From Candidatus Aerophobota bacterium (lineage in GTDB: Bacteria > Aerophobota > Aerophobia > Aerophobales > B3-G15), in assembly GCA_030615365.1 (NCBI GenBank), contig JAUWZM010000052.1, forward strand, positions 1 to 19,420: a stretch of 19,420 bases of DNA, read 5' to 3'. Made by a program: the position numbers and the translations under genes. Below, piece by piece: positions 3,194 to 19,388 of this stretch (position 1 is its first letter; each line of letters begins with the position of its first letter). The notes beneath the pieces were generated by a model. It made no database searches. It was given only the letters and a program-made list of their open reading frames with translations, and had not been told where the DNA came from.

Positions 3194-3206
3194 ATTTTAC
3201 AGAAAA
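3193..3206. repeat. IS256 element inner inverted repeat, right copy
   Basis: AATTTTACAGAAAA, the exact reverse complement of 1877-1890. It begins at the last base of the transposase stop codon. Confidence 0.75.
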
Positions 3207-3263
3207 ATTGGGATTGACTCATTTATTTGCAACTTATAAATTAAAATATTAAACTTTATATTA

Positions 3264-5440: not shown

Positions 5441-6391
5441 CTACTTTTGGGATCTCCGTGACAGGGTTACACGGCCTATTATCCCTTCAATGCCATTTGG
5501 GAAGAAAAAGATCCCCAGCATTAATAGAACGGCTAAAGAGATAAAAAATGGGTATGGATTTTGTCTTGTAGCAAACAGCTCAAAGAACAGAGAAAGGAAT
5601 ATTGCACTGATCATACCTCCCCTCAAGCTCCCGACTCCACCGATTACTCCCATTACAAGAACATTAAAAGAGATGATGGGAGCAAAGACAGTTGTTGTAT
5701 CTATATAGCCTCCCCGGGGTACTATGGCAGCCGCAGCGATACCGATAAAAAAAGCACTGATGCTGAAAGTCAGGGATTTATAACGGGCGGTATTTATACC
5801 GACGATACTGGCAAGGTCCTCATTTCCTTTGATGCAGGACAGGCCGTAACCAAACCTTGAATTCTTCAAGAAGAAAGCCGCAAGCAGGGTTATTATGGTG
5901 ATAACAAGTAGTACATTATAAATGGTAGATATGGGAACAATAGTCACTGTCCTACCACTAAGATAGGACACTGCCTGCTCATAATAGAGAACCAGTGAGG
6001 CGAACAATAGAACCATTGCATATGAAGCAATTGTAAAATACGGACCCCTGATCCTGAGAAAGATTATACCAAGAAGGTAAGCTACAACAAAGGATATTAT
6101 ACCGACCAGGGGAATAGCCAGTAAGTAAGGTATCCTGGTGGATATTATTGCATAAGAATATCCTGCGATTCCATATATCGCTGCCACACCCAGGAAGAGA
6201 TACCCGGTAAACCCGGAAAATATGTTCCATGCTATAACCAGGTGGACATATAAGATTATTGTTAGCAATATCTGGAGAATATACCGCGAGGAATACAAGG
6301 GTACAGTAAATAAGACTACGATCACGATAATACCTATTATCCAAACCGGTGCTTTTATGTTCCTTATTGCTATCACTGTCCTGTTTTTCAT
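5441..6391 (-). CDS. livM: LivM-type branched-chain amino acid ABC transporter permease
   Basis: A 316-residue inner-membrane permease of the HAAT/LivM family with about 8-10 hydrophobic helices. The family-typical region GSRFGYGLSCIKGNEDLASIVGIN-like (here NSRFGYGLSCIKGNEDLASIVGIN, around residues 178-200) is the cytoplasmic loop that contacts the ATPases, and VMGVIGGVGSLRGGMISA follows in the C-terminal half. It pairs with LivH just upstream (9 bases between the livH stop and this start), and should form the membrane channel with LivG and LivF encoded on the opposite strand. It is the last gene of the minus-strand arm; its stop is 17 bases from the end of the GIDE pseudogene, and no terminator hairpin is seen there. 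Substrate cannot be assumed to be an amino acid, as this permease class serves many small organic compounds. Confidence 0.93.
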   Translation of the reverse strand: MKNRTVIAIRNIKAPVWIIGIIVIVVLFTVPLYSSRYILQILLTIILYVHLVIAWNIFSGFTGYLFLGVAAIYGIAGYSYAIISTRIPYLLAIPLVGIISFVVAYLLGIIFLRIRGPYFTIASYAMVLLFASLVLYYEQAVSYLSGRTVTIVPISTIYNVLLVITIITLLAAFFLKNSRFGYGLSCIKGNEDLASIVGINTARYKSLTFSISAFFIGIAAAAIVPRGGYIDTTTVFAPIISFNVLVMGVIGGVGSLRGGMISAIFLSLFFELFATRQNPYPFFISLAVLLMLGIFFFPNGIEGIIGRVTLSRRSQK

Positions 6392-6400
6392 TTATTTACC

Positions 6401-7276
6401 TCACATATTCTTAAATAAGCCTGAGGGCCTGATCAAAAGTATAGTTACAAATAAGGCATAGACGAATGCAATTTTAAGCAAAGGTGCAGTGAAAAACATG
6501 ACAAGGACCTCCGCCAGGGCAACAATAAAGCCTGCTATCAAAGCTCCCTTAACACTTCCTATTCCCCCAATAATAGTTACCACAATAGCAATCATGGTAA
6601 ATTCTACCCCCTGGTAAGGGCTCATAACGAAGTTAAAGCTGTACAGGGTTCCACCCAGGCCAGCTGTAAAGAAAGCTATGAAAAAGATAACGAAGTGTAC
6701 AGTATCCACATTTATTCCCATAAGTTTTGCAGCATCATTATCATCAAAAACACATTTGATGCTTAGCCCGACCCAGGTCCTCTTGATTATCAACCATATG
6801 ATTCCCAGCGACGACAATGAAAGGACTATGGTCAATAGCTTCCTGAATGGGATAATAGTACTGGAAAAAACCAGGCTCTCCGGACCAGGAAAGGTCTGTG
6901 GATTTGCTGTAAATATTACCGCCAGAGCATTAGAAGCTATCCAGGCCAATGCAAAGGTCATGATCAATGTTGTGTATTCCCTGTCAGTCCTGGAGATAGG
7001 CCGCATTAGAATGCGGGAGAAACCTCCAATCTTATACAGGGCCATCCCAAAAATACCCATCAGGATTGGAACAATGATAAGCAGCCATAATGGTGCTATA
7101 CCCAGTGCTGATACAAATATAAAAGTGAGATAAGCTCCAACGATCATGAAATCTCCGTGAGACAAGTTGATTGTCTGGGAAACACCATAAAGAAGGCTCA
7201 AGCCAACACCTATCAGTACATATATGGAACCCAGAAAGATACCACTGACCGCAAGGTTAAGCACGGTTGTTAGCAT
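6401..7276 (-). CDS. livH: LivH-type branched-chain amino acid ABC transporter permease
   Basis: A 291-residue permease with the LivH opening GIFLGSIYVLIGVGLSLLYGVSQTINLSHGDFMIVGAY, a hallmark of the family, several transmembrane helices, the KRTWVGLSIKCVFDDNDAAKLMGIN loop that docks the ATPase, and VVTIIGGIGSVKGALIAG near the C-terminus. GGAGGAAAG stands 5 bases before the ATG. It is preceded on the same transcript by the PEP-hydrolase-like gene with a 145-base gap that can fold into a stem-loop, and followed closely by livM. Together the two permeases make the heterodimeric pore of the importer. Confidence 0.93.
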   Translation of the reverse strand: MLTTVLNLAVSGIFLGSIYVLIGVGLSLLYGVSQTINLSHGDFMIVGAYLTFIFVSALGIAPLWLLIIVPILMGIFGMALYKIGGFSRILMRPISRTDREYTTLIMTFALAWIASNALAVIFTANPQTFPGPESLVFSSTIIPFRKLLTIVLSLSSLGIIWLIIKRTWVGLSIKCVFDDNDAAKLMGINVDTVHFVIFFIAFFTAGLGGTLYSFNFVMSPYQGVEFTMIAIVVTIIGGIGSVKGALIAGFIVALAEVLVMFFTAPLLKIAFVYALFVTILLIRPSGLFKNM

Positions 7277-7385: not shown

Positions 7386-7426
7386 AGTAAGCATAATCTT
7401 AATAAAAACTGTAATTACTGCTTACT
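7386..7426 (-). other. Intercistronic stem-loop between PEP-hydrolase-like gene and livH
   Basis: AGTAAGCA (7386-7393) and TGCTTACT (7419-7426) are exact inverted repeats, and TAAT/ATTA just inside can extend the stem past a bulged base. It overlaps the stop codon of the upstream gene. No T-run follows, so a processing or mRNA-stability role is more likely than termination. The rest of 7277-7421 shows only the livH ribosome site. Confidence 0.4.
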
Positions 7427-8336
7427 TTTTCAACTTTTTAACAGCCCTAAATCTTGCAATGGTATCTATAAGGGCGTTTTCTACAGGGACTCTTTCCCAG
7501 GCTGAAGCTGCTTCAAAGCCATCGGTGGTAGTTTTTTCAAACATATATTTTACTGATTCAACGTCAATAAACGGTCCGCCGTGGGACAGTGAGATTATCT
7601 TAGGATTGATCTCCCTGGCTGCATCGGTTATTTCCTGTACATGCTTACAGGCTTCATCTATGTCTTTGATGGGAGTAATTCTGGTATTTGGATATCTCTC
7701 AGTTGTAGGCGCTCCGACCTTACCACCACTGGACCAGCCGGCATGAGGTACTATGGCATCTGCTCCTGCTTTAGCAACATCCTGAGCCTGTTTCGGTGTA
7801 CATGCATACCACATGGTGAAAATATCCAATTCATTACACAGAGCTACCAGTTCAACTTCTCTATCCCATCCCATATTTAAAGGATCCCTTACTCTGGTTG
7901 TTGGTTCAAGAAAAACAAGGGTTGGGAAGTTCTGTATACCATCATAGCCCATTTCGATTACTGTTTTTACCATTCTTTTTAACCCGCGTTCACCCCTGAA
8001 TCTTGGATCATAACATTCCACTCCTGCAATAAGAGGAGTCTTGTCAACCTGGGTCCTGATCTCTTCATACATCGGGAATGACCAGCGGTTAGGGTCTGCC
8101 AGCATAGTGGTAGGCATTCCCCAGTGCCTAGATAAACCAGTCTCATATACTACTATGGCATCAAGTTCTGTTAATTCTGCATATTTGGCCACTATACCAA
8201 CACTACATCCGGCATAGATGATAGGTATGCCCTTTTTGATCTGGGCATTCCAGTTATCAACAATAGCTTTTCTTGTCGGCATAGGTTCAACAAGTTGAGA
8301 TAATATCCGTTCTCTTTCAGTTATATTTAAAGCCAT
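7422..8336 (-). CDS. PEP-hydrolase-like TIM-barrel protein (PF09370/Tm-1 C-terminal type), copy 2
   Basis: A cytoplasmic (beta/alpha)8-barrel protein of the phosphoenolpyruvate-hydrolase-like family, of about 304 residues, the usual length. No reaction has been firmly established for the family. Diagnostic stretches are IPIIYAGCSVGIVAKYAE, MGYDGIQNFPTLVFL, IFTMWYACTPKQAQDVAKAGADAIVPHAGWSSGGKVGAP (HAGW..GG is the most conserved block) and SLSHGGPFIDVESVKYM, ending with DGFEAASAWERVPVE. The start at 8336 is chosen because AGGAAAGGAG ends 9 bases before it; the frame could run up to 8363 but would overlap the previous gene. Only four bases separate it from the stop of copy 1, so the two are translationally coupled. 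The two copies are diverged paralogues, not a recent duplication, and may form a heteromer or act on successive substrates. Confidence 0.88.
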   Translation of the reverse strand: MALNITERERILSQLVEPMPTRKAIVDNWNAQIKKGIPIIYAGCSVGIVAKYAELTELDAIVVYETGLSRHWGMPTTMLADPNRWSFPMYEEIRTQVDKTPLIAGVECYDPRFRGERGLKRMVKTVIEMGYDGIQNFPTLVFLEPTTRVRDPLNMGWDREVELVALCNELDIFTMWYACTPKQAQDVAKAGADAIVPHAGWSSGGKVGAPTTERYPNTRITPIKDIDEACKHVQEITDAAREINPKIISLSHGGPFIDVESVKYMFEKTTTDGFEAASAWERVPVENALIDTIARFRAVKKLKK

Positions 8337-8340
8337 TTCG

Positions 8341-9264
8341 TCACGCTCCTTTCCTGTTAACATTGGGATTCTCGGGATTCAATTTCAGGCTCTTATATTC
8401 TTTCCCTATCCGTAAAAGTTCATTTTCTATAGGGATGGCATCAATAGCATGTCCGACTTCAAAGCCGTCTACATCACACTTATCCATCACACTTTGAGCG
8501 TTCTCGGGAGAGTTTAAAGAACCGCCAGTGACCAGCACTATCTGTTTCGGATTGACTTCCCTTGCTGCATTTGCGATATCCTGAGCCAGCTGAATGGTCC
8601 CGTCAAGGTCTCTTGGTTGACCCCTAAAACCTTCTTCTTCAAAATCAAAATCTACTGTTCCTGGAGCAGGTGCTCCGGTGCTTCCACCAGTAGTCCATCC
8701 TGCATGGGCAATTATTACATCTGCGCCTTTCTTTACAAACTCCTTGGCATCATCTGGCCAGAAAGCGTAAGCCATAGAAAATATATCTTTCCGGCTTGCC
8801 AGTTCGATCATCTCCAGTTCCCGTTTGAAACCGAAGCCTGCTGCATCACGCAACCATCGCATTGGTATATAATAACCGTGGGTGGGAAAATTCTGTACAC
8901 CATCGTAACCTATATCCATTGCTTTATCCAATAGCTCATCAGTATGCCTGAACAAACTGTCATAAGCTTCAAGTCCCGCTACTAGTGGAACATTGTCCAG
9001 AGCATTTGTCATCTCATGGTGTACATCGAAAACATTGTCCTTCATCTCATTACTGCCTCCCCACCACAGGGTACACAGAGGCACTGGATGGCCCCGGTAA
9101 CGGAACCTTCCCCAGCTATGGACACTTATTAAGTCAGCACTGTTCTTTTCAGAGTATCTAGCAACCATTCCCGATGAAGCATTGGCCACAAAAATCGGCT
9201 CATTAGCTTTAATCTTCCGGTTAAGTATGTCAAGGATTTCTGCTCTAGAAAATTTAGTCTTCAT
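8341..9264 (-). CDS. PEP-hydrolase-like TIM-barrel protein (PF09370/Tm-1 C-terminal type), copy 1
   Basis: A second member of the same TIM-barrel family (307 residues) directly upstream of copy 2. Conserved blocks align: EPIFVANASSGMVARYSEKNSADLISVHSWGRFR, IGYDGVQNFPTHGYYI, IFSMAYAFWPDDAKEFVKKGADVIIAHAGWTTGGSTGAP, and QIVLVTGGSLNSPENAQSVM, then DGFEVGHAIDAIPIE. The active-site-like HAGW..GG and VQNFPT blocks are intact, but the loop after GSTGAP is longer and acidic (VDFDFEEEGFRGQP), and WWGGSNEMKDNV replaces the short equivalent in copy 2, so substrate preference probably differs. AAAGGAG precedes the ATG by 6 bases. The gene follows the binding-protein gene after a stem-loop, placing it in the importer transcript. 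Confidence 0.88.
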   Translation of the reverse strand: MKTKFSRAEILDILNRKIKANEPIFVANASSGMVARYSEKNSADLISVHSWGRFRYRGHPVPLCTLWWGGSNEMKDNVFDVHHEMTNALDNVPLVAGLEAYDSLFRHTDELLDKAMDIGYDGVQNFPTHGYYIPMRWLRDAAGFGFKRELEMIELASRKDIFSMAYAFWPDDAKEFVKKGADVIIAHAGWTTGGSTGAPAPGTVDFDFEEEGFRGQPRDLDGTIQLAQDIANAAREVNPKQIVLVTGGSLNSPENAQSVMDKCDVDGFEVGHAIDAIPIENELLRIGKEYKSLKLNPENPNVNRKGA

Positions 9265-9303
9265 ACTATCTCCTTTCTTTTTTGTTTACCATCTAGATCT
9301 TTG

Positions 9304-9346
9304 GCAGATTTACTGCCCTTCTACTTATGAAAGGCAGTAAATCTGC
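9304..9346 (-). other. Perfect 14-bp stem-loop between the binding-protein gene and the downstream operon
   Basis: GCAGATTTACTGCC (9304-9317) and GGCAGTAAATCTGC (9333-9346) are exact inverted repeats with a 15-base loop. It lies 18 bases after the livJ stop on the minus strand. There is no T-run after the stem in the direction of transcription, so it is not a standard intrinsic terminator. Such hairpins after a binding-protein gene commonly protect the upstream mRNA from 3' decay and lower expression of downstream genes, giving excess binding protein. Confidence 0.75.
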
Positions 9347-9364
9347 AAATGTTGCTTTTTGCTA

Positions 9365-10789
9365 TTACCATTCAGGTTTTGGATATATTGGAGCTGCTGA
9401 TATCCAATCTTCTACATTCCAGTCTCTTTCAATTCCGCCCATCTCTCCATAACCTGCTCCTACAATCTGGCAATCCTGACCCAGGTCAGTGTCACTGGTT
9501 CCAATGTGCTGACCAACTGCTCCAGGCAGATCAGGCCATGGTCCCTTGTCCCACATGATGGGACCCAGTACTGTAGGAATTGGGTTATCTTTGGTCTTCA
9601 GGATTTCTGCTCTTATAGCATCCTTATCAGTAGTACCTGCCCGCCTGATGAGTTCGGCCATGACTTCAATAGTACCATAAGCCATAGGACCATCGACCAT
9701 ATCGGGAGCCAGACCATATTTATCAATATAGGCATTCATCACATCAACACCAGAACCAAAAGTACCCATGGACATCTCACTCGTCGGGAATGCGAAGGAG
9801 TGGTACATTATACCATCAAGTTTGGCTCCAAACCTGGTATATGCTTCACCAGAGGAGCTACCGAGTGCATTATAGAACAGCTTGGGATTGTAATCCAATG
9901 CGATCATATCCTCTATTGATTTCATTCCATCACCAGGATAGCTGAACTGGATTATTGCATCAGGGTTAAGTACCTTAGCCTTAGTTATAAGAGCAGTAAA
10001 GTCCAGTATATCCATTGGATACTGTTCCTTGGCCAGGATTTCGATATCTACCATAGGGAGTAAATACTCCAGGAATCTTGAGCTCTCAGAACCATAGAGA
10101 GTTCCTATCTCCCATATTACTACTGTCTCAACACCTACTTCCTCCAGGACACTGACCAGACCCTCTATATGGAAAGCTCTGGGATTCTCTGTCCAAAGAG
10201 TGTATTCCCATTCGGTCCATGGTTGGCCATTCTCAGTATACACATCATCTGTCTTGTAGAGATTATAGAACTCTTCTGCAGTTTCCCATTTAACACAGGT
10301 ACCGTTTCCTACCATATAGGTGGTTCCAAATTCCCCTGACAGACTGTTCACAAGTGGTTCCTGGGCAAAGCCCTGGAAAGTTCCATAGGATCCGTAGATG
10401 ATGTCTACCATATCCTGAGTGATGAGTTTCTCTACGTTGGTTGCGGCCCTTCCGGTATCTCCCTGGTCATTATATACGATCCAATTGAGTGGTACTGTGG
10501 TTCCGTATTGAGAGAGGTATATTCCTCCCTGAGCATTGACCTGTTCGGTAAAAAGCTCATAGAAGGTCTCGCAAATGATCTCGGCAGAAGCCAAAAATCC
10601 TGTGATAGGACCGGAATGTCCAAATTTGACTTCTGTTGGTCCTTCGTGGACTTTTTCCACTTCGACTGTTTCCGTAACTGTTTCTGTAACAGTCTCAACA
10701 ACTACCTGTGGCTCTTTACAGCCCGGTAATAGCGAGAGTAGTGATATACATATAATCACTACAGCAGCAAATAAAAATGTTTTTTTCAT
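9365..10789 (-). CDS. livJ: LivJ-type substrate-binding lipoprotein of the ABC importer
   Basis: A 474-residue type-1 periplasmic-binding-fold protein that should capture the substrate outside the cytoplasmic membrane and deliver it to LivHM. The N-terminus is a lipoprotein signal (MKKTFLFAAVVIICISLLSL) ending in the lipobox LPGC with C24 as the lipidated residue. A threonine/glutamate/valine-rich linker with ETVTETVTETV repeats follows (about 32-45). The mature domain opens with VKFGHSGPITGFLAS, the usual ligand-binding entry, and has GRAATNVEKLITQDMVDIIYGSYGTFQGF and DILDFTALITKAKVLNPDAIIQFSY. At 474 residues it is longer than classical LivJ (about 370-400) and rich in aromatic and acidic residues, so the ligand is unlikely to be ordinary leucine. 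AAGGAAGGG precedes the ATG. It is the first gene of the minus-strand arm. Confidence 0.9.
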   Translation of the reverse strand: MKKTFLFAAVVIICISLLSLLPGCKEPQVVVETVTETVTETVEVEKVHEGPTEVKFGHSGPITGFLASAEIICETFYELFTEQVNAQGGIYLSQYGTTVPLNWIVYNDQGDTGRAATNVEKLITQDMVDIIYGSYGTFQGFAQEPLVNSLSGEFGTTYMVGNGTCVKWETAEEFYNLYKTDDVYTENGQPWTEWEYTLWTENPRAFHIEGLVSVLEEVGVETVVIWEIGTLYGSESSRFLEYLLPMVDIEILAKEQYPMDILDFTALITKAKVLNPDAIIQFSYPGDGMKSIEDMIALDYNPKLFYNALGSSSGEAYTRFGAKLDGIMYHSFAFPTSEMSMGTFGSGVDVMNAYIDKYGLAPDMVDGPMAYGTIEVMAELIRRAGTTDKDAIRAEILKTKDNPIPTVLGPIMWDKGPWPDLPGAVGQHIGTSDTDLGQDCQIVGAGYGEMGGIERDWNVEDWISAAPIYPKPEW

Positions 10790-10826
10790 TTTACCCTTCC
10801 TTTTGAAATTTTTTCTTTAAAAATTT

Positions 10827-10854
10827 TTAATCTGACATATATGCATCACCTCCT
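10827..10854 (-). promoter_or_regulatory. Perfect anti-Shine-Dalgarno match with a minimal reading frame ahead of livJ
   Basis: On the minus strand AGGAGGTGAT (10854-10845) is a full match to the 16S tail. It is followed by ATG TCA GAT TAA (10838-10827), encoding only Met-Ser-Asp, or by an overlapping nine-codon frame from the ATG at 10846-10844 (MHICQIKNF). Either could be a leader peptide or ribosome standby site if transcription starts upstream. It conflicts with the promoter entry above, so only one of the two readings can be right. Confidence 0.3.
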
Positions 10855-10864
10855 GTTGCGTCAA
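10836..10864 (-). promoter_or_regulatory. Candidate livJ promoter with an overlapping operator-like palindrome
   Basis: On the minus strand TTGACG (10864-10859) and TATATG (10841-10836) are separated by exactly 17 bases, placing the transcript start about 40 bases before the livJ start codon. The palindrome TGTTG-CGT-CAACA (10854-10866) covers the -35 box, a fitting place for a repressor. The -10 box is only a 4/6 match. Confidence 0.4.
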
Positions 10865-10929
10865 CACAATATAGATTTATATAGAATGAAGCCAATAATC
10901 ATTTTCCTTAAATAAAATTATTATAATTG

Positions 10930-10975
10930 GGGTCAATTCAGTAAGATTTAGCTAAGTTTGAGTATTTTTTGACCC
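10930..10975. repeat. Inverted repeat GGGTCAA / TTGACCC in the divergent control region
   Basis: GGGTCAA at 10930-10936 and TTGACCC at 10969-10975 are exact inverted copies 32 bases apart, near the middle of the region. The right copy extends to TTGACCCTCA, a 10-mer that recurs exactly at 18744-18753 upstream of the UPF0261 gene. They may be sites for the local DeoR-type regulator. Confidence 0.4.
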
Positions 10976-10989
10976 TCACAAAATTTTAA

Positions 10990-11018
10990 TTGATATTTTA
11001 CAAATATTGGTATATTAT
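10990..11018 (+). promoter_or_regulatory. Candidate sigma-70-type promoter of the DeoR-family gene
   Basis: TTGATA (10990-10995) and TATTAT (11013-11018) are each a 5/6 match to consensus and are spaced by 17 bases. A transcript from here would have a leader of about 135 bases before the regulator. The upstream TTGACCC half-site (10969-10975) would be close behind the -35 box. Confidence 0.5.
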
Positions 11019-11162
11019 AACATAAATCCTATAAATTAAAACATAAAATAAAAAAAATTAACAGTTTTAAAAGCTTCTACTTCTATAAGTTATAATAATT
11101 GATTAGAATAAATATGTATAGTAACTGGAATTTTGGACCAGAAAAACTCTTTTAAACAATGA

Positions 11163-11969
11163 TTGGAGTCTGATAGAAAATTGAGAGCCAGCAATAGAAG
11201 ATATAAAATACTTGAGATCTTAAAGTCCAGGAATGCTGTAAGCATAAAGGAATTAGCTGATCTATTAAATGTCAGTTCTATGACCTTATATAGAGATATA
11301 AAACATCTGGGCAGCAATCTTTTTCTATCAAAGGGCAATGTTATTTATATTGAAAATAATAATTCTGAAGAATCTCCTTATAGTACCAGAAAGGGAAGAA
11401 ATAAAGAATTGAAAAAAGCGATAGCCAGGGCTGCCATAAATTACATAAAAGATAATGACACAATTTTTCTGGATGGCAGTTCGACAATCGGATATTTGGC
11501 GAGCGAGATAATCAAAAGCAACCTTTGCTTAACTGTAGTAACAATATCGCCAATTATTTCAATTGAACTGGCTAAAGCGGATAGTATAAAAATTTTATGC
11601 CCTGGTGGATTATTAGATAATATAAATTATATTTATAATTGCGAGATTGAGAATTATTTAAAATCTATAAATATAAATAAAGCTTTTATCTCTTGCGGAG
11701 CATTTTCCCTGGAAAAAGGATTTACAGATCTGGCTATTGGTGAATCAAAGATTAAAAAAGAAATAATAGATAAAATTCCTGAAGTCAATATTTTAGCCGA
11801 TCATACAAAGATGAAGAATGCACATAGTTATACCTGGTCAAATTTTGATAAATTAACCAGGTTGATATGTGATAATAATATTGATAAGAGCGATTTAAAA
11901 GAACTAAAGGCTAAAAAAATAGAAATAGTTTTGGGAAATGTAGTGGAGTCCAGAAATAATTTTGTGTAA
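11163..11969 (+). CDS. DeoR-family transcriptional regulator
   Basis: A 268-residue regulator with an N-terminal winged helix-turn-helix (RRYKILEILKSRNAVSIKELADLLNVSSMTLYRDIKHL, about residues 12-50) and a C-terminal DeoR sensor domain of the ISOCOT fold. Visible sensor features are DTIFLDGSSTIGYLASEI (sugar-phosphate-type loop with D and GSST), a central GAFSLEKGFTDLAIGESKIKK and NILADHTKM near the end. DeoR proteins usually repress carbohydrate or related catabolic operons and respond to phosphorylated intermediates. The recognition helix reads MTLYRDIKHL rather than the usual TIRRDL, so the operator may be unusual. The start is uncertain: TTG 11163 directly follows an in-frame TGA, and TTG 11181, with GGAG 12 bases upstream, is an alternative; no ATG is available. 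It heads the plus-strand arm and probably controls both arms. Confidence 0.88.
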   Translation: MESDRKLRASNRRYKILEILKSRNAVSIKELADLLNVSSMTLYRDIKHLGSNLFLSKGNVIYIENNNSEESPYSTRKGRNKELKKAIARAAINYIKDNDTIFLDGSSTIGYLASEIIKSNLCLTVVTISPIISIELAKADSIKILCPGGLLDNINYIYNCEIENYLKSININKAFISCGAFSLEKGFTDLAIGESKIKKEIIDKIPEVNILADHTKMKNAHSYTWSNFDKLTRLICDNNIDKSDLKELKAKKIEIVLGNVVESRNNFV

Positions 11970-12032
11970 ACCTCCAAGTTAACCAACAATATTAAACAGT
12001 TTAGAGGAGAGCACAAATACCAAAAAAATAAG

Positions 12033-12059
12033 GATCTTTTTTAAAGATCTGAAAGGAGA
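12033..12059 (+). promoter_or_regulatory. Hairpin directly before the ribosome site of the third TIM-barrel gene
   Basis: GATCTTT (12033-12039) and AAAGATC (12043-12049) form a perfect 7-bp stem with a 3-base loop, two bases before the strong ribosome site AAAGGAGAGG. Stem formation could affect access to the site or slow RNA decay. It is short and AT-rich, so its effect is uncertain. Confidence 0.4.
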
Positions 12060-12066
12060 GGGTCAA

Positions 12067-12744
12067 ATGATGCCAAAACTAATCCTCATGTTTACATTCA
12101 ATGATATGACTGTTCCTGATGCCATTGAATATTTTGAACAGGTAAAAGACCTTCCTGTAGACTATTTTGGTTATAAGGAGCTTGGGCTGGAGCCTGAGAA
12201 AATGAAGGTCTTAAACGACAAAATCCATAAAGCTGGATTTCAGACTTTCCTTGAAGTCGTTGAATATGAGGAGGAAACAATACTCGGCCCGGCACAGATG
12301 GCATTAGACATGGGGTTTGATTATCTTATGGGAACCGTTTATTTTCCTTCAATATGGAATGTTATAGGTAAAAAGATCAATTACTTTCCATTCTGTGGAA
12401 AGATTTATGACCGCCCTTCTATCCTTGATGGAACAATAGAGGAAATAGCCAAGGATGCAAAGAGAATAGAGGCGGAAGGAGCCAATGGTTTTGATCTTAT
12501 CGCTTACAGGCACATAGATCAGTCAAAAGTAAATGAACTTGTAGGTGCTGTAAAAAATGCAGTGAAAGTACCTATTGTATTAGCAGGTTCAATAAATAGT
12601 TTAGAGAGGGTTGACGAGACTATTAAACAGGGAGTCTGGGGATTTACCATAGGCGGTGCATTCTTTGAAAGGAAATTTGTCCCAGATGGCTCTTACAGGG
12701 AAAACGTCGCTGCAGTGCTTGAACAACTTGGTAAAAAGCTCTGA
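12067..12744 (+). CDS. TIM-barrel protein of unknown function with C-terminal phosphate-binding-like motif
   Basis: A 225-residue cytoplasmic protein that I could not assign to a named family. The alternation of strands and helices and the motifs KVPIVLAGSINSLERVDETIKQGVWGFTIGGAFFERKF in the last quarter are typical of phosphate-binding (beta/alpha)8 barrels (HisA/TrpF/NanE-like), where the AGSI and IGGAFF loops bind a phosphate. Other strand ends with polar residues are DYFGYKELGL, QTFLEVVEYEEE, FDYLMGTVYFPS and FDLIAYRHID. A lyase, isomerase or epimerase acting on a phosphorylated compound is a reasonable inference, not more. AAAGGAGAGG precedes the start; the second codon is also ATG. It lies between the regulator and livG, so it is co-regulated with the importer, and is not a paralogue of the two PEP-hydrolase-like proteins. 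Confidence 0.75.
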   Translation: MMPKLILMFTFNDMTVPDAIEYFEQVKDLPVDYFGYKELGLEPEKMKVLNDKIHKAGFQTFLEVVEYEEETILGPAQMALDMGFDYLMGTVYFPSIWNVIGKKINYFPFCGKIYDRPSILDGTIEEIAKDAKRIEAEGANGFDLIAYRHIDQSKVNELVGAVKNAVKVPIVLAGSINSLERVDETIKQGVWGFTIGGAFFERKFVPDGSYRENVAAVLEQLGKKL

Positions 12745-12745
12745 T

Positions 12746-12762
12746 AATTATTTAAAATAATT
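12746..12762 (+). other. Small AT-rich hairpin in the gap before livG
   Basis: AATTATT (12746-12752) and AATAATT (12756-12762) form a 7-bp stem with a 3-base loop just after the stop codon, before the livG ribosome site (AGAGGA). It is weak, all A/T, and of uncertain importance. Confidence 0.3.
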
Positions 12763-12779
12763 CTAGAGGAATATTAGAT

Positions 12780-13532
12780 ATGACATCAGAAAATTCAATA
12801 CCTCTTTTTGAGGTCAGAGGGGTAAAAAAGAGATTCGGCGGAAACATCGTTTTGGACGGTATAGACATGAGAGTGAAGAGGGGTGAGATCAGGTCCCTCA
12901 TTGGGCCTAATGGTGCGGGCAAGACAACTCTGTTTAACTTGATCTCAGGAATCTACCGGGTAGACGCGGGCGATATCATGTTTGAAGGAAAAAGGATTAA
13001 TAAACTAAAACAGCACCAGATCTGCAGGGTGGGTATCGCAAGGACTTTCCAGAATGCTAAGCCCTTTTTGTCCATGACTGTGTTACAGAATGTTGTATCC
13101 GGCTTATTATTTGGTTCGGATACTGTTTCCCATATAAGCTCTGCAGAGAAAGAAGCTATGGAGATACTTGACTTCATTGACCTAGAGGATAAATCTCATA
13201 TCCTTGCGGAGTCATTGACCATCGGAGACATCAGGCGTCTGGAGATAGCCAGAGCTATCGCCTGTAAACCAAAACTTATACTTTTTGATGAAGTGCTGGC
13301 TGGCCTGACTGTTCAGGAGGTTGAGACAGCTCTTCATTTCATCAAGAAACTCAGGGATGAAAGAGGAATAACCATATTATTGGTAGAGCACAATTTAAGG
13401 GTTGTAATGAAGGTATCAGACAAGATCAGCGCCCTTCATCTGGGTAAGATAATATGTTCAGGCAAACCTGAGCAAGTTGCTAATGATAAATGTGTAATAG
13501 AGTCATATATGGGAGAAGATAAACATGCTTAA
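12780..13532 (+). CDS. livG: LivG-type ABC transporter ATP-binding protein
   Basis: A 250-residue ATPase that powers import through LivHM, in complex with LivF. Walker A is GPNGAGKTT (42-50), the Q-loop is ARTFQNAKPF (Q91), Walker B is LILFDE (D170, E171) and the switch histidine is in LLVEHNLRVVM. The signature LSGGQ is replaced by LTIGD (146-150) followed by IRRLEIARA; LivG proteins normally have LPYGDQRRLEIARA, so this is a further departure at the P-Y positions. The residue after the catalytic glutamate is V rather than P (FDEVLAGL). These changes do not remove a catalytic residue. It overlaps livF by eight bases. Confidence 0.93.
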   Translation: MTSENSIPLFEVRGVKKRFGGNIVLDGIDMRVKRGEIRSLIGPNGAGKTTLFNLISGIYRVDAGDIMFEGKRINKLKQHQICRVGIARTFQNAKPFLSMTVLQNVVSGLLFGSDTVSHISSAEKEAMEILDFIDLEDKSHILAESLTIGDIRRLEIARAIACKPKLILFDEVLAGLTVQEVETALHFIKKLRDERGITILLVEHNLRVVMKVSDKISALHLGKIICSGKPEQVANDKCVIESYMGEDKHA

Positions 13533-14223
13533 AATTGAAAACCTCTCCTACTCATATGGTAAAATCAATGCGCTAACAAATGTAAGCCTGGAAGTCAAGG
13601 AGGGGAAAATCACTGCCCTTCTGGGACCAAACGGTTCAGGCAAGAGTACCCTGGTTAATAATATAGCAGGCCTATTGACACCTTCAGAGGGAGACATTTA
13701 CCTTAATGGTGAGAAGATTACGGCACTACCTCCCTATAAGCGCGTACAAAGGGGGATTTCAATTGTCCCAGAGAGACGGAGGCTATTTGAACACTTATCA
13801 GTTCTGGAAAATCTCAAAGCCAGTGCTTTCCTGAACAGGAAAAAAATAAAAGAAAATCTCAAGGTAGTTTACTCGATCTTTCCAATACTTAAAGAGTGCA
13901 GAAATCAGATTGTTTCTACTATGAGCGGAGGGCAGCAGCAGATGGTGGCCCTTGCCCGGGGAATGATGGCTAATCCATTAGTTCTAATACTGGACGAGCC
14001 TCTCCTGGGGCTACAGCCAAGTATAGTTTTAGAAATGGTCCAGAACTTAAAAAAGATCTCAGAACTGGGCACGAGTATCTTACTGGTAGAACAAATTTTC
14101 TACCAGGTTTCTAAAATAATAGATTGGGCCTATATAATGGAACACAGGCAGATCACCATTAGTGGAAAGATTGAAGACATTATAAATAATCCTGAAGTAA
14201 AGAAAGCCTACCTTGGAATGTGA
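13525..14223 (+). CDS. livF: LivF-type ABC transporter ATP-binding protein
   Basis: A 232-residue ATPase and partner of LivG. Walker A is GPNGSGKST (34-42), the signature is TMSGGQQQMVALARG (a standard SGGQ), and Walker B is LVLILDEPLLGLQP, with the LLVEQ switch region typical of LivF. The start lies inside the last codons of livG (eight-base overlap) with GGGAG nine bases upstream, so translation is coupled and the two subunits should be made in equal amounts. It is the last gene of the plus arm; its stop is six bases from the convergent HD-domain gene, with no terminator hairpin evident. Confidence 0.94.
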   Translation: MLKIENLSYSYGKINALTNVSLEVKEGKITALLGPNGSGKSTLVNNIAGLLTPSEGDIYLNGEKITALPPYKRVQRGISIVPERRRLFEHLSVLENLKASAFLNRKKIKENLKVVYSIFPILKECRNQIVSTMSGGQQQMVALARGMMANPLVLILDEPLLGLQPSIVLEMVQNLKKISELGTSILLVEQIFYQVSKIIDWAYIMEHRQITISGKIEDIINNPEVKKAYLGM

Positions 14224-14229
14224 CCTGGT

Positions 14230-14778
14230 TTATTTCCTAAGCTTTTCATCCAGGATCTTGACTGCTTCCTGATAAAAAGGCTTGGCAATTTTTTTTGCTT
14301 TATCCAGAGAAATACGGTCATACATCCAATCAAATTTAGCCATGATCTGTTCTCTCGTAAAATTATCTATCCAGTTTGCATGTGTTGCTGCATTAGTCTT
14401 AAAATAACTTATGGAATCAGCATCCTTTATTAAATTTTGTCCATAAGTACCACCGTCTTCATGCCTCTCGATCAGGTTTTTAACCTTAGATGCAAATTCA
14501 GGATTTGCCCCCTCCTTTAACAGGAATCTATGTATTTCCTTTGCACCGTTTTCTTGATGCTTCCTGAGTACTTCCTCATCCAGAAGGAAAACCCCTATGT
14601 TATACTCACAGATTGCCCGCTCGGTATCATGTGCATATGCTGCAATTTGCAGTGTCTCATCAGCATCTGGTTCTAGCTGATTAAGCCAGTACAATGCCTG
14701 GACAAAATGCGGGTCTTTTTTTCCAAAAAGGTGGTCGACATGTTTTATGGTCTTGTCTAAAAAATAGCCTTTTTTCAT
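14230..14778 (-). CDS. HD-domain protein, probable metal-dependent phosphohydrolase
   Basis: A 182-residue protein with an HD-type metal site: an early histidine (H13/H16), the HD doublet in IAAYAHDTERA (H50-D51), a further histidine in LIERHEDGGTYG and an aspartate in LIKDADSISYF. This order (H...HD...H...D) is that of the HD superfamily, which hydrolyses phosphoester bonds. WLNQLEPDADETLQIAAYAHDTERA resembles a known group of uncharacterised HD-like proteins. Its start overlaps the nitroreductase stop by four bases (ATGA), so it is translated from the same mRNA. The substrate is unknown; in this locus a phosphorylated metabolite of the imported compound is a possible target, but that is inference. 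Confidence 0.75.
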   Translation of the reverse strand: MKKGYFLDKTIKHVDHLFGKKDPHFVQALYWLNQLEPDADETLQIAAYAHDTERAICEYNIGVFLLDEEVLRKHQENGAKEIHRFLLKEGANPEFASKVKNLIERHEDGGTYGQNLIKDADSISYFKTNAATHANWIDNFTREQIMAKFDWMYDRISLDKAKKIAKPFYQEAVKILDEKLRK

Positions 14779-15515
14779 TCTTGATTCTTAAATCCCTGTT
14801 TCTTTAATGTTGGATAAACCTTCGGATAATAGTTGTCTTTATAAAAATTGCTGGTATTGTAGCTCCAGTTTATTTCCTGCTCTCTATCAACGTCCTTTAA
14901 GTATTGGACTATCAGCTCATCATAAGAGTCTATAGCATCTTTTAGATTTTCCCCGCTGTATTTCTCAAAGTGACAGTAGGTGGCTTTATCCAACCTCGGT
15001 TTTAACTTTGAGCGGTCTTCGGGATATCCCAGACATAGTCCCACTACAGGATATGTATATTTAGGCAGCTCCAATAACTCTATGATGGTAGCAGGATCAT
15101 TTCTGATGCTGCCGATACATACAGTACCAAGCCCCAAAGATTCAGCTGCAGTGATGACATTTTGCATGCTGAGCCCTATATCAACAGAGCCTACCATAAT
15201 TGATTCAATGCTATCTGTAACGGTCTGTGTCCTGCCGTTTTTTTCACACGCTAATTTGGTTTTAAGAAAATCCATTACAAAAAGAAAGAAGACCGGACAC
15301 TCCTCTATCCATAGCATTTCCACAGCAACCTGTTCGATTTTCTTTTTTGACTGCTTATCTTTTATCACAATGACTGCGCTTTGCTGGCCGTTAAGTGAAG
15401 TCGGTGCACGCTGTGCAACATCGACAAGTTCATTAATAATATCATCCGGGATCATGGTATCTTTATATTTTCTTATAGACCTGTGGTTTTTCATTACTTG
15501 AATGGTCTGGTTCAT
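14775..15515 (-). CDS. Nitroreductase-family FMN-dependent oxidoreductase
   Basis: A 246-residue flavoenzyme of the nitroreductase superfamily, close in length and layout to NADPH-dependent NfsA/Frp-type reductases. FMN contacts are visible as NHRSIRKYKD (residues 10-19), RAPTSLNGQQSAVIVI (36-51) and AAESLGLGTVCIGSIRNDP (about 121-140). It uses reduced nicotinamide to reduce nitro, quinone or flavin-type substrates in the cytoplasm. The role here could be reduction of an intermediate of the imported compound. A convincing promoter (TTGACT, 17 bases, TATAAT) lies upstream, and it is the first gene of a two-gene unit with the HD protein (ATGA overlap). Confidence 0.88.
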   Translation of the reverse strand: MNQTIQVMKNHRSIRKYKDTMIPDDIINELVDVAQRAPTSLNGQQSAVIVIKDKQSKKKIEQVAVEMLWIEECPVFFLFVMDFLKTKLACEKNGRTQTVTDSIESIMVGSVDIGLSMQNVITAAESLGLGTVCIGSIRNDPATIIELLELPKYTYPVVGLCLGYPEDRSKLKPRLDKATYCHFEKYSGENLKDAIDSYDELIVQYLKDVDREQEINWSYNTSNFYKDNYYPKVYPTLKKQGFKNQE

Positions 15516-15606
15516 GATCAGTCTCCCCTCTTATTTGTTTAACTTCACAAACTTGCTTGGTTTTTACATATAGATTTAGGATTATATTCTGCTGTGCTTT
15601 TCAATA

Positions 15607-15635
15607 ATTATATCGATTTCAGGAGGTTCAGTCAA
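15607..15635 (-). promoter_or_regulatory. Strong promoter of the nitroreductase-HD unit
   Basis: On the minus strand TTGACT (15635-15630) and TATAAT (15612-15607) are spaced by exactly 17 bases, near-perfect for the housekeeping sigma factor. The transcript would begin about 85 bases before the nitroreductase start. Confidence 0.65.
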
Positions 15636-15646
15636 TATAATTTTTT

Positions 15647-15677
15647 AATTTTCAATCTATACAAAGCATTGAAAATT
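15647..15677. promoter_or_regulatory. 10-bp inverted repeat, probable operator in the divergent promoter region
   Basis: AATTTTCAAT (15647-15656) and ATTGAAAATT (15668-15677) are exact inverted copies separated by 11 bases. The centre-to-centre spacing is 21 bases, two helical turns, as for a dimeric regulator. The right half covers the -35 box of the rightward promoter and the left half is 12 bases upstream of the leftward -35 box. Confidence 0.6.
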
Positions 15678-15697
15678 GTGTAATATTAATGAATAAT
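15669..15697 (+). promoter_or_regulatory. Candidate promoter of the 99-residue protein gene
   Basis: TTGAAA (15669-15674) and AATAAT (15692-15697), each 5/6, with a 17-base spacer. The transcript would start about 20 bases before the AAAGGGGG ribosome site. Confidence 0.55.
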
Positions 15698-15723
15698 TCA
15701 TACAAAAAAAGGGGGTCACAAAT

Positions 15724-16023
15724 ATGAAATTCTTAGTCCATTGGAAAATGCGTCCATCTCCTGCTTCAGAAGTTTTAAAGCTGCTTCCCAAGGATCTCGC
15801 ATTCTGCCAGGACCTGATGAAGGAAGGAAAGCTATTGCAATCCTATGTCCTTGCAGGAAAGCCGGAAGGGTTTGAGGTATTCGATGTAGAGACCAATGAA
15901 GAAATGCATAAAATAATTATGGAAGCACCTTTTGGTCCTTTCCTCGACTTTGAGGTCTGGCCCATAGTTGATTTCGATTTCTCATTAAATACCTTGAAAT
16001 CGGTCCTGGAAAGCAACAAGTAG
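15724..16023 (+). CDS. Small ferredoxin-like-fold protein resembling muconolactone isomerase/YCII family
   Basis: A 99-residue protein with the pattern of a dimeric alpha-beta barrel: strand MKFLVHWKM, helix PASEVLKLLPKDLAFCQDLMKEG, strand KLLQSYVLAGKPEGFEVFDV, helix TNEEMHKIIMEAPFG, strand FLDFEVWPIVDF. This 'RM..E....L.EGK' plus 'EGF.VFDV.....' arrangement is seen in muconolactone delta-isomerase-like and DUF3303-type proteins. Enzyme activity is not certain; many members are stand-alone small-molecule-binding or isomerase subunits. AAAGGGGG precedes the ATG. It is transcribed alone, divergently from the nitroreductase, and its stop is 16 bases from the convergent MFS gene. A role in handling the compound taken up here is inference from position. 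Confidence 0.65.
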   Translation: MKFLVHWKMRPSPASEVLKLLPKDLAFCQDLMKEGKLLQSYVLAGKPEGFEVFDVETNEEMHKIIMEAPFGPFLDFEVWPIVDFDFSLNTLKSVLESNK

Positions 16024-16038
16024 AATATTGGGTGCTGT

Positions 16039-17235
16039 CTAAGTCTTTTTTCTGACTCCGGTTTCCGGTATAAAGAAAACGAGCACTAAAGAGATGACCA
16101 TAATTACAACCAGCAGGATTATTGAAAACGTAAGCGATCCTGTCAGATCTTTCAGGTAACCTGCTATTAGGGGGCCCAGAGCTCCGCCTATATAACCTAT
16201 TGAAATAACTATGCCACTTGCTGTTCCGGCATAGGCAGGTGTCACCAGCTCAAGTGGGAGGAAAAGGGATATTACATATGTAGCAGTAAGGGTAATTCCC
16301 AATAATGCCATGAGAATGATATCCAGGATAAAGGGGGTATAAAGTACACCCAAAAATGCTGCTGCTGCAATCAGGCAACTTATCCATAGGAAAGGCTTTC
16401 TCAGGCCTATCCTGTCTGATACAAATGGAACTAGAAATACAGCAGGGATACCGGCTATGGTAACTACCGAGGTCAGGAATCCCGAGCTGATTTCGCTAAT
16501 ACCTTTTTCCATGAAAAAAGTGGAAAACCATCCTGTTATTATATAAAAGGTTATATTAGCTGCAAGTGCGAAGAAAATGGCAACAATCCATATGTATTTG
16601 TTCCTGAGTACTGCTCCAAAAGAACCCTTTGAAACCTGTGAAGGTGAAAGCTCCTCACTTCTGAAAGAAGAAGGTTCTCTTGCCAGGCTCCACCATATGA
16701 TAGTTACAATAAAAGCTATAGTCCCCCAGAAATAATAAACACCTCTCCAACTCCCCATTAATGGAAAGACCATGGGCATGGTTATAGACAGGGCCAATGT
16801 CCCACCTACGAAAACCCCGGTCGAGTAAATCCCTGTTGCTGTACCCACAAACCTGTTCGGATACCATAGCCTGACGATTTTAGGAAGATTGGGGAAAATG
16901 AAACCCCAACCAATACCAACAATAAAGTTGAGTATTAATAGAATAGCAAAATTTGGGGAGATTCCCCTGAGAAAAGCACTTAAGCTTAATAGTATTGCCC
17001 CAAGGCCCGCAGCTTTGCGTGGCCCAATAATATCTCCCAGAAACCCTCCCACAAAGGCAAACAGCCCCAGGGTTATGACCGGTGCTGAAAATAATAATCC
17101 AGCCTGGGAAGCTGTAAGGTTTAGTTCCTGAATAGTGAGATTCAGTACCGGAGAGACACATAATACCGAAGCATATGCCGCAAAGATCAGCAGCCATGAA
17201 CATGTTAATGTAATTATCCGGTTTTTTGAATCCAT
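16039..17235 (-). CDS. Major facilitator superfamily transporter
   Basis: A 398-residue membrane carrier with about 12 transmembrane helices in two halves joined by a central cytoplasmic loop (LAREPSSFRSEELSPSQVSKGSFGAVLR). The MFS motif A region after helix 2 reads GGFLGDIIGPRKAAG, and its repeat in the second half is VSDRIGLRKPF. N-terminal LTIQELNLTASQAGLLFSAPVITLG and the overall pattern recall the cyanate/nitrate-type and sugar-acid (anion) carriers. It could import a substrate or export a product. It lies 86 bases downstream of the UPF0261 gene on the same strand, presumably in one operon; its own ribosome site is GAAAGGAAG, about 12 bases before the ATG. Confidence 0.9.
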   Translation of the reverse strand: MDSKNRIITLTCSWLLIFAAYASVLCVSPVLNLTIQELNLTASQAGLLFSAPVITLGLFAFVGGFLGDIIGPRKAAGLGAILLSLSAFLRGISPNFAILLILNFIVGIGWGFIFPNLPKIVRLWYPNRFVGTATGIYSTGVFVGGTLALSITMPMVFPLMGSWRGVYYFWGTIAFIVTIIWWSLAREPSSFRSEELSPSQVSKGSFGAVLRNKYIWIVAIFFALAANITFYIITGWFSTFFMEKGISEISSGFLTSVVTIAGIPAVFLVPFVSDRIGLRKPFLWISCLIAAAAFLGVLYTPFILDIILMALLGITLTATYVISLFLPLELVTPAYAGTASGIVISIGYIGGALGPLIAGYLKDLTGSLTFSIILLVVIMVISLVLVFFIPETGVRKKT

Positions 17236-17321
17236 TGGAGGTGTTCTCTTCCTTTCAAGAATTCAGGATGATAAATGCATCCTCCCGAACTATTGTGATT
17301 GTATTCGATTCATTTTCAAAA

Positions 17322-18611
17322 TTAATTATACTTTTTTCCCTTCTTCCACTTCCCGGTAATCATATCATCCAGTATGGAAGATGTTATCTTTGCAAATCTG
17401 AGGTCATTTATGTGTAGATCCACTTTTATTAATTCTATATTGTCCCTAGATTTTTCCAGGTTTTTTTCCAGAGCTTCGACAAAAGCCCTATTTGCATCGG
17501 GATAATACCAGTGTCTTCCGGTAGAGGTACCATCGTAATTGACAGTGAGGTATTTTCCTTCAGTATCCAGAATCGACCAACCTTTCAAGGGAATGGCAAC
17601 AACGGTAGGTCCTTTGGCTTTGTTCACTTTCTTTGCAAAGACCTTACCCAGCTTTTCACTCTCTTTCTTGCTGGTCCTCATCAAGGTTGAATTCGGGTTA
17701 TGGAAATAAAACTCCCTGTCCCTGTACTTATCCGGAACAGTATCAAGTGACCAAAATTGAATCATATCCAGACACCCGGGAACAAGGACCTGTGGGACTC
17801 CTTTCTCTCCTGCTGTCTCCATACGCTTCGGTCCGGAATTTGAAAAACCTCCAAAACACCAGTCAACAACTTCATGAGTGGTTATATCTAAAACTCCGAC
17901 TACCATCCCGCTTTCTACCAATTCCTCCAGTACCTCTCCGCCGGACCCCACTGCATGAAATGATATAAACTCATAATCCCTGGCATCCAGTATTTCCCTT
18001 GCTTTATCAATGTGGGGAGTGGTGTTACCATACTGGGAAGCCACGATTATCTTCCTTTCCTCCGGGATCTCCGGTTGGGCATCCACCATACCGGCAATAG
18101 CAGCAGCTGCATGAGCCAGGGTTATCGCTTCTATCCTGTTGATCCTCTCCCCGTTCATATCTGTCACAGTTGGGAAGATAGCTATATTTTTTGGCCCTAC
18201 AGAGCCGGCTGCCAGACTAAGTGAGGTAGTGACTAAAACCTTGGGTACATCTAAAGGCAGGGATTTTTCTACCAAGGCCGTTATAGATTCACCCATACTT
18301 CCTCCATAACCAAGGATTCCATCGATCTTTTTCTTGCTGTAAAGATCTTGCACAATCTTGATTGCTCCTTTAACCGTCACTTCTATAGCCGGCATCCTTT
18401 CCAGCTTTTCGACTTCTTTAATATTGCTGCCGGCTGCCCTTATCACATCTTTATTGGAAATGTCCCCATCTCTCAGCTTCGGATTGCACTTCCTCATGCT
18501 AATGTCTATAAAGATGGTTTTGTGTCCAAATCTCTCGATCTGGTTTCTGATATACTGGCCCTCAATCTCTTTAGTGTTTAGAGTGCCCAACAGAATCACA
18601 GTTTTAGCCAT
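17322..18611 (-). CDS. UPF0261 family protein (Tm-1-like N-terminal domain)
   Basis: A 429-residue cytoplasmic protein covering a full UPF0261 (PF06792) domain of two Rossmann-like halves. Marks are TVILLGTLNTKEIEGQYIRNQIERFGHKTIFIDIS at the N-terminus, IDGILGYGGSMGESI and VPKVLVTTSLSLAAGSVGPKNIAIFPTV in the first half, and SFHAVGSGGEVLEELVESGMVVGVLDITTHEVVD followed by GVPQVLVPGCLDMIQF in the second. The domain is known as the N-terminal part of tomato Tm-1, where it is joined to a TIM barrel like those encoded at 7422-9264. ATP/nucleotide binding has been proposed for the family; the reaction is not established. GGGAAGG precedes the ATG. It is the first gene of a unit with the MFS carrier. 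Confidence 0.9.
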   Translation of the reverse strand: MAKTVILLGTLNTKEIEGQYIRNQIERFGHKTIFIDISMRKCNPKLRDGDISNKDVIRAAGSNIKEVEKLERMPAIEVTVKGAIKIVQDLYSKKKIDGILGYGGSMGESITALVEKSLPLDVPKVLVTTSLSLAAGSVGPKNIAIFPTVTDMNGERINRIEAITLAHAAAAIAGMVDAQPEIPEERKIIVASQYGNTTPHIDKAREILDARDYEFISFHAVGSGGEVLEELVESGMVVGVLDITTHEVVDWCFGGFSNSGPKRMETAGEKGVPQVLVPGCLDMIQFWSLDTVPDKYRDREFYFHNPNSTLMRTSKKESEKLGKVFAKKVNKAKGPTVVAIPLKGWSILDTEGKYLTVNYDGTSTGRHWYYPDANRAFVEALEKNLEKSRDNIELIKVDLHINDLRFAKITSSILDDMITGKWKKGKKYN

Positions 18612-19037: not shown

Positions 19038-19388
19038 ATGCGAAAGAGAAGAAGTTTTTCTAGTGAGTTTAAAAAAGAGGTAGTAGAAGCTATAGTTTCG
19101 GGGCAAGCTACTGGGGCAGAGATTTCAAGAGAATATTCTATATCTCCAGTATTGATATCTAATTGGAAGAAAGACTACAAAGAAGGAAAGTTCTTTGATA
19201 ATGTTAATAGTACTGATATTGCAAGATTAGAGCTTAAGGTAAGAGAGCTGGAAAGACTTGTTGGTGAGCTTACTATGGAAAACAGAATGTTAAAGAAAGT
19301 TAGAGATCTAAATAACAAGAAAAAAAAAGAAGATTTATCCATAATAACCTCAAGGACCTGGGATCAGTTAAAAAAGGGTGCAGACTAG
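19038..19388 (+). CDS. IS3-family transposase OrfA (HTH DNA-binding subunit)
   Basis: A 116-residue protein with the HTH_Tnp_1-type helix-turn-helix: RRSFSSEFKKEVVEAIVSGQATGAEISREYSISPVLISNWKKDYKEG (residues 4-51). A leucine-zipper-like coiled coil follows (IARLELKVRELERLVGELTMENRMLKKV), used for OrfA-OrfAB oligomers. A strong AGGAGG ribosome site precedes the ATG. After a run of nine A (19320-19328) the frame ends at 19388, while the -1 frame continues as OrfB. Confidence 0.93.
   Translation: MRKRRSFSSEFKKEVVEAIVSGQATGAEISREYSISPVLISNWKKDYKEGKFFDNVNSTDIARLELKVRELERLVGELTMENRMLKKVRDLNNKKKKEDLSIITSRTWDQLKKGAD
19320..19328 (+). promoter_or_regulatory. Probable -1 frameshift site of the IS3 element (A9 run)
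   Basis: Nine consecutive A at 19320-19328 followed by G, placed where OrfA and OrfB frames meet. In the IS3 family such A-runs drive programmed -1 slippage to make the OrfAB fusion transposase. Confidence 0.7.

Follow-up and report, generated by a model that had tools for sequence, protein, structure and literature searches.

Why should one bacterial locus hold a gene of the UPF0261 family, two genes of the PF09370 TIM-barrel family and a complete importer? The locus in question lies on contig JAUWZM010000052.1 of a Candidatus Aerophobota bacterium, of which a stretch of 19,420 nt was analysed (hereafter the window, meaning the whole of that stretch). In tomato, one polypeptide, the virus-resistance protein Tm-1, unites the UPF0261 and PF09370 families and has been recruited against a plant virus. 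No metabolic role of the two Tm-1 domains was found in the open-licence literature searched. The original prediction, made from the letters of this DNA, had read the locus as a split Tm-1 system serving an import-fed catabolic pathway. We find that nine of its genes make up a conserved unit, a new two-barrel variant of a pairing that is already known, in which one barrel keeps the residues of its family and the other appears to have been retooled.

A conserved nine-gene unit

The genes on which the argument turns, with family calls defined throughout by Pfam and NCBIfam cut-offs, are the following.

5441..6391, minus strand: LivM-type permease (PF02653, 82 bits)
6401..7276, minus strand: LivH-type permease (PF02653, 129 bits)
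7422..8336, minus strand: barrel B, PF09370 (205.9 bits)
8341..9264, minus strand: barrel A, PF09370, active-site residues altered (195.9 bits)
9365..10789, minus strand: periplasmic binding protein (SBP), Peripla_BP_6 (PF13458, 89 bits)
12067..12744, plus strand: third TIM barrel, no Pfam family above cut-off (model pLDDT 95)
12780..13532, plus strand: LivG-type ATPase (PF00005, PF12399)
13525..14223, plus strand: LivF-type ATPase (PF00005, 119 bits)
16039..17235, minus strand: major facilitator superfamily (MFS) carrier, CynX/NimT-like (PF07690, 189 bits)
17322..18611, minus strand: UPF0261 protein of the Tm-1 N-terminal type, 429 residues (PF06792, PF23189)

As proposed beforehand, the UPF0261 gene is complete, with both Pfam domains matched end to end (PF06792 at 131.2 and PF23189 at 241.8 bits, each against 27) and NCBIfam model NF002674 passed at 401 against a cut-off of 335; its product also matches Tm-1 (3wry) at an E-value of 1.9e-52. 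Both tandem barrels lie far above the PF09370 cut-off of 33.8. The annotated frame of barrel B reaches 8363, but translation more likely begins at the ATG of position 8336, which follows GGAAAGGAG and lies 4 bp past the barrel A stop. The further TIM barrel that had been proposed (12067-12744) is indeed modelled with a barrel fold.

When the genome collection was searched with an alignment of barrel B, the sole match was a 12,294-bp contig of Candidatus Fraserbacteria RBG_16_55_9 (L001); an earlier scan of genome contigs with barrel A gave no match, and two scans of viral contigs revealed no barrel relative. On one strand, L001 carries the binding protein, A, B, UPF0261, MFS, LivH and LivM, and on the other LivF, LivG, a GntR-UTRA regulator and a third barrel. 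Identities between the window and L001 amount to 70% for the SBP, 77% for A, 85% for B, 74% for UPF0261, 68% for the MFS carrier, 64% for LivH, 65% for LivM, 74% for LivG and 71% for LivF. The MFS carrier is counted in the unit because its 68% match lies inside the L001 operon. By comparison, single-barrel loci of Thermomicrobium and Variovorax are 25-41% identical to the window where they match, with the SBP and MFS carrier lacking a match there. The nine-gene two-barrel variant (SBP, A, B, UPF0261, MFS, LivH, LivM, LivG and LivF) is conserved, and it is new; its conservation at 64-85% in L001 rules out chance neighbours for this core. Gene order is not fully retained, as UPF0261 and MFS stand between B and LivH in L001 and are relocated in the window. 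In a set of 100 genomes from the phylum, the barrel was found in L001 and in one of the 99 others (G059), there adjoining UPF0261, and a UPF0261 search returned the same two genomes.

The GC content at third codon positions (GC3) is 0.35-0.48 in the cassette genes, against 0.16-0.30 in RarA, PCC, ORF 4113, the transposases and the DeoR gene (the last at 0.27, like the flanks). This contrast, together with the likeness across lineages, points to horizontal acquisition of the cassette, with a direction of transfer that we infer, and the cassette is probably mobile.

Two barrels of opposite fate

Sequence identity between barrels A and B is 36%. In a tree of 53 rows, A and B each form one group of 12 rows and the two groups are sisters (supports of 100/100, 100/99 and, for the sisterhood, 100/97); A and B descend from one duplication. 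A recent tandem copy is ruled out by the low identity and by a split that precedes the rest of each clade; an origin from two old PF09370 subfamilies, distinguished by GRYR and TGxSR motifs, is ruled out by the sisterhood. The stem of A is about twice as long as that of B (0.95 against 0.49).

The residues of 18 A sequences were compared with those of 42 non-A sequences (15 B and 27 other; B numbering). His261, Ser287, Glu290, Arg291 and Tyr73 are invariant in all 42, the first four hence in 15/15 B and 27/27 other sequences, and 98% of them have Gly52. Among the A sequences, Ser is replaced by His and Gly by Asn in 18/18, His by Thr and Tyr by His in 17/18, Glu by Asp in 78% and Arg by Ala in 61%; the window barrel A holds T246, H272, D275 and A276 where the family has His261, Ser287, Glu290 and Arg291. 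The polar family invariants R31, D68, R79, N92, D119, N145, E169 and H207, on the other hand, are retained in 18/18 A sequences each. Judged from its residues, barrel A is a PF09370 member by descent and not by site, and since the replacements are fixed, we regard it as retooled rather than decaying. By our own reading of the barrel A model, several of the altered sites appear to lie at the C-terminal tips of its strands. Compared with the Mesorhizobium protein Mll9387 (PDB 2p10, an entry with the title putative phosphonopyruvate hydrolase), barrel A is without several residues conserved elsewhere in the family; to our knowledge, no assay of Mll9387 exists.

Besides the window, A and B occur together on five contigs, of 12,294, 10,120, 14,800, 7,878 and 5,413 bp, the sharing being read for four of the five solely from an identical length figure. 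For the A-clade proteins of three contigs (34,901, 33,855 and 120,389 bp), the matches listed, which give one representative per 90% cluster and so do not prove absence, include no B on a contig of equal length. These three contigs, and another of 15,716 bp, have the same lengths as contigs carrying third-barrel proteins.

The UPF0261/PF09370 pairing and the importer

For comparison with orthologous groups, we take COG5564 to be the PF09370 family. COG5441 is UPF0261 (PMC2364660), and in fungi the COG5441-COG5564 pair is among the highest-ranking ones (STRING score 0.988; PMC8963296). Yang et al. 2016 (PMC5028733) report that, of 504 bacterial genomes with a TBST (PF09370) gene, 491 also have UPF0261, and that the two evolve in a correlated way (r 0.77 over 333 genomes); in their account, separate genes are usual in prokaryotes, and the fusion seen in plants arose later. 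The general Rosetta-stone link that the original prediction drew is hence real, but it is already in print (PMC5028733, PMC8963296) and no discovery, and to call the prokaryotic genes 'split' misleads, the fusion being the derived state. As a separate observation, the Brucella UPF0261 gene BAB2_1127 is named among the genes of a mutant screen in PMC2364660.

Our own survey addressed the refuting condition set by the original prediction, that the two families are neighbours no more often than by chance, and its outcome spoke against refutation. Both were present in 18/18 plasmid loci opened (17 at a PF09370 and 1 at a UPF0261 match; these loci are the top of the match list and not a random sample). 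In 15 of them the families adjoin within about 200 bp, two of these having UPF0261 fused to an ATPase, and in the other three they lie 0.4-2 kb apart. When 12 plasmid records were searched whole, each of their 14 UPF0261 genes had a PF09370 gene no more than about 5 kb away, and one Bradyrhizobium PF09370 gene lay elsewhere. Genes for ABC transporters occurred in 11 of the 14 annotated plasmid loci opened (branched-chain type in three), and the neighbours of the pair include oxidoreductases, cupins and sugar ABC genes. Kinship of UPF0261 with the DUF1537 kinases was tried and rejected (hhalign probability 15%), and a PDB profile search with 10 UPF0261 sequences returned only Tm-1 chains and 9mpy below an E-value of 0.1.

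The importer of the window is complete, with a binding protein, two PF02653 permeases and two ATPases. Neither the binding protein nor the transporter reaches a branched-chain or urea equivalog cut-off, all Liv/Urt models listed remaining below theirs (UrtB 128 against 250, LivG 217 against 362, UrtE 202 against 286). A more direct connection is found on plasmids: in Variovorax (L038 2705-4957, 750 residues) and Yoonia (L040 2835-4997, 720 residues), a Liv-type ABC ATPase is followed in one protein by both UPF0261 domains, with PF09370 next and branched-chain-type permeases nearby, and on a Shinella plasmid a third fusion is read from a one-piece match over 96% of the protein. Because Liv ATPase and UPF0261 are fused in three plasmids, the importer is tied to UPF0261, which backs the idea of an import-fed pathway. 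No report of this fusion, or of the two-barrel form, was found in the open-licence literature searched, and on that footing both are new. The Variovorax and Yoonia fusions are annotated as 'ABC transporter permease', a misannotation that merits correction. They resemble the window in linking UPF0261 to a Liv-type importer followed by PF09370, and differ in the fusion itself and in having a single barrel; the Variovorax UPF0261 is 31% identical to that of the window.

Unfused, the closest arrangement is that of a Thermomicrobium roseum plasmid (NC_011961, L009), where two branched-chain-type permeases, an SBP, two ATPases, UPF0261, PF09370 and a GntR regulator follow in one run. Its one barrel belongs to the other PF09370 branch of the tree, no MFS carrier or third barrel is annotated in the stretch, and identities are the 25-41% given above. 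Beside the pair (L009 10638-18819) are a PPDK_N-only protein, a PEP-utiliser mobile-domain protein, a fumarylacetoacetate hydrolase, an ABM protein and a xanthine-dehydrogenase-type subunit, neighbours that look as if suited to a ring compound. Relative to the UPF0261-TBST pair, which occurs in bacteria, archaea and fungi, and to the Tm-1 fusion (PMC5028733), the window shares the two families in one locus and a full-length, two-domain UPF0261; it differs in having two PF09370 paralogues of opposite fate instead of one, and a full Liv importer, an MFS carrier and a third barrel conserved alongside.

That third barrel, present in both the window and L001, belongs to a family of which 963 relatives were found, none of it covered by a Pfam model above cut-off; the few named relatives among the matches listed are Actinobacteria metagenome-assembled genomes. 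It is no PF09370 relative (hhalign probability 0.9%). Its plasmid relatives, 33-43% identical and in some cases fused to a cupin, adjoin PdxA-type genes in five of six opened loci, four of which also have an annotated four-carbon acid sugar kinase. The likeness to DUF1537-PdxA acid sugar operons, in which such relatives are the third gene, ends there, as neither a DUF1537 kinase nor a PdxA gene was detected among the window proteins scanned.

Accessory and flanking features

The remaining features of the window are listed below.

1967-3951 and 19038-19388: transposase genes, flanking the locus on both sides
9301..9349, minus strand: RNA hairpin in the gap between the binding-protein gene and barrel A (region fold -30.9 kcal/mol, z -6.5)
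11163..11969, plus strand: DeoR-type regulator (PF00455, 115 bits)
14230..14778, minus strand: HD-like protein, cassette membership uncertain (weak PF01966/DUF4202)
14775..15515, minus strand: NfsA/NfrA-type nitroreductase, cassette membership uncertain (PF00881, 83 bits; top PDB match NfrA2, 5hei)
15724..16023, plus strand: muconolactone-isomerase-like protein, cassette membership uncertain (PF02426, 47 bits against a cut-off of 26.7)

The gene list drawn up beforehand was correct for the Liv permeases, binding protein, ATPases, DeoR, MFS, nitroreductase and HD-like genes, the HD match being weak (PF01966 at 22.8 bits against 22, DUF4202 below its cut-off), and had overlooked the muconolactone-isomerase-like gene. 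As for the single unit that had been proposed, L001 bears it out for UPF0261, the PF09370 barrels, the Liv importer and the MFS carrier, whereas the nitroreductase, HD and DeoR genes are not supported as core. None of these three has a counterpart in L001, a weak negative as that contig ends at 12,294 bp. In composition, the nitroreductase, HD-like and muconolactone-isomerase-like genes resemble the cassette, with no counterpart on the short L001. The DeoR gene, in place of which L001 carries its GntR-UTRA protein, is possibly a local addition.

L001 has a hairpin at the same place with unlike sequence (1305-1425, z -4.0, against z -6.5 in the window), and the structure perhaps protects the binding-protein message. 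A short frame at 4981-5250 beside the transposases, with a GIDE-type match (PF12483, 25.7 bits against 23.6), is possibly a gene remnant. No tRNA was detected in the window, nor any Rfam match at gathering scores. TTGACCC, considered as a shared operator motif, occurs 5 times against 2.3 expected, a count that 15 of 200 shuffles reach.

A possible function and its alternatives

With moderate confidence, we read the locus as an acquired catabolic cassette for a small molecule, in which UPF0261 and barrel B would form an ATP-dependent enzyme and barrel A would be a retooled partner or the enzyme of the next step. The molecule would be bound by the periplasmic protein (9365-10789) and imported by the Liv-type transporter (5441-7276, 12780-14223). 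UPF0261 would then most likely activate this molecule at the expense of ATP, for instance by phosphorylating an acid, and barrel B, with the active-site residues of the family kept, would act on the product. Barrel A, its site rebuilt, may be an obligate partner subunit of B or catalyse the following step, the third barrel may act further downstream, and the MFS carrier could export or import a related compound. That the unit is import-fed and catabolic is likely, the catabolic role being what we infer; an ATP-dependent enzyme of UPF0261 and barrel B is plausible from fusion, adjacency and co-evolution. The ATP-binding label of UPF0261 itself stems from the names given in annotations.

Several observations weigh against this proposal. 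The nine-gene comparison involves one other contig only, the third barrel is 40% identical to its L001 counterpart against 64-85% for the nine others, and in the window some 6.5 kb, with intervening genes, separate UPF0261 from the SBP gene. In the plasmid collection (72,556 records), barrel B matches 230 records and UPF0261 343, leaving at least 113 with UPF0261 and no barrel-B match, and on the Yoonia record two additional UPF0261 genes lie apart from the barrel; UPF0261 can thus work without a nearby barrel. Of the 72 columns that 14 or more of 15 other UPF0261 members conserve, the window protein departs from 17 (at 11 of them Fraserbacteria has the same residue as the window), so that it may carry out a different chemistry from the usual pair. 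No substrate or reaction was found for either family in the open-licence literature searched, and ligand binding without catalysis by PF09370 is possible, given its N-terminal sensor role in two sigma-54 regulators.

Among the alternatives, it is quite possible that two successive steps are divided between A and B, each an enzyme of its own and not part of one complex. The reciprocal, fixed residues of A suggest a substrate of its own, and the third barrel adds another presumptive step; however, no result tells this reading from a heteromer, as the duplication and the altered A site fit both. Possible too, if slightly more doubtful, is a role of barrel A without catalysis, as a pseudo-enzyme or a regulatory subunit that shapes or controls B within a heteromer in which B alone is catalytic. 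The loss of the invariant His and Ser, and mostly of the Glu-Arg pair, agrees with this, as do the longer stem, genes that nearly touch and correlated A and B distances (r 0.92 over 6 pairs, with 30/720 permutations as high). The retained polar invariants and the fixed new residues, however, are as compatible with the gain of an activity as with the loss of one, and co-inheritance alone explains the correlation. Returning to the cassette that we prefer, its boldest form, an ancient, Liv-fed, ATP-dependent heteromer of UPF0261, canonical barrel and retooled barrel with an undescribed class of reaction, from whose simple form plant Tm-1 arose, is an unlikely extension.

A sensing role for the UPF0261/PF09370 module, with a metabolite detected and not degraded, is improbable. 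In Phyllobacterium and Mesorhizobium, a PF09370 barrel is fused N-terminal to sigma-54 AAA and Fis domains (L014 5405-7129, L016 8508-10337), beside UPF0261-PF09370 pairs. Neither AAA nor Fis domains are found in window barrels A and B, no DNA-binding or AAA domain occurs in these barrels or in UPF0261, and a separate DeoR regulator is present; the transporter-ATPase fusions and the metabolic neighbours on plasmids likewise speak against sensing. Scarcely credible is a gathering of unrelated genes by transposons, suggested by transposases on both sides and by the displacement of UPF0261 and MFS relative to Fraserbacteria, since the nine genes stand together in another lineage and the families in 18/18 opened plasmid loci, which refutes it for the core and leaves it for the nitroreductase, HD, muconolactone-isomerase-like and DeoR genes.

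Significance

Three results are worth keeping: a two-barrel variant in which one copy is retooled, a nine-gene unit that is conserved, and the fusion of ATPase and UPF0261. The locus offers a binding protein that can be screened for ligands, an importer tied to UPF0261 by fusion elsewhere, and residue swaps between paralogues that name the sites to mutate. A substrate identified for the binding protein would give the first indication of what both families act on.

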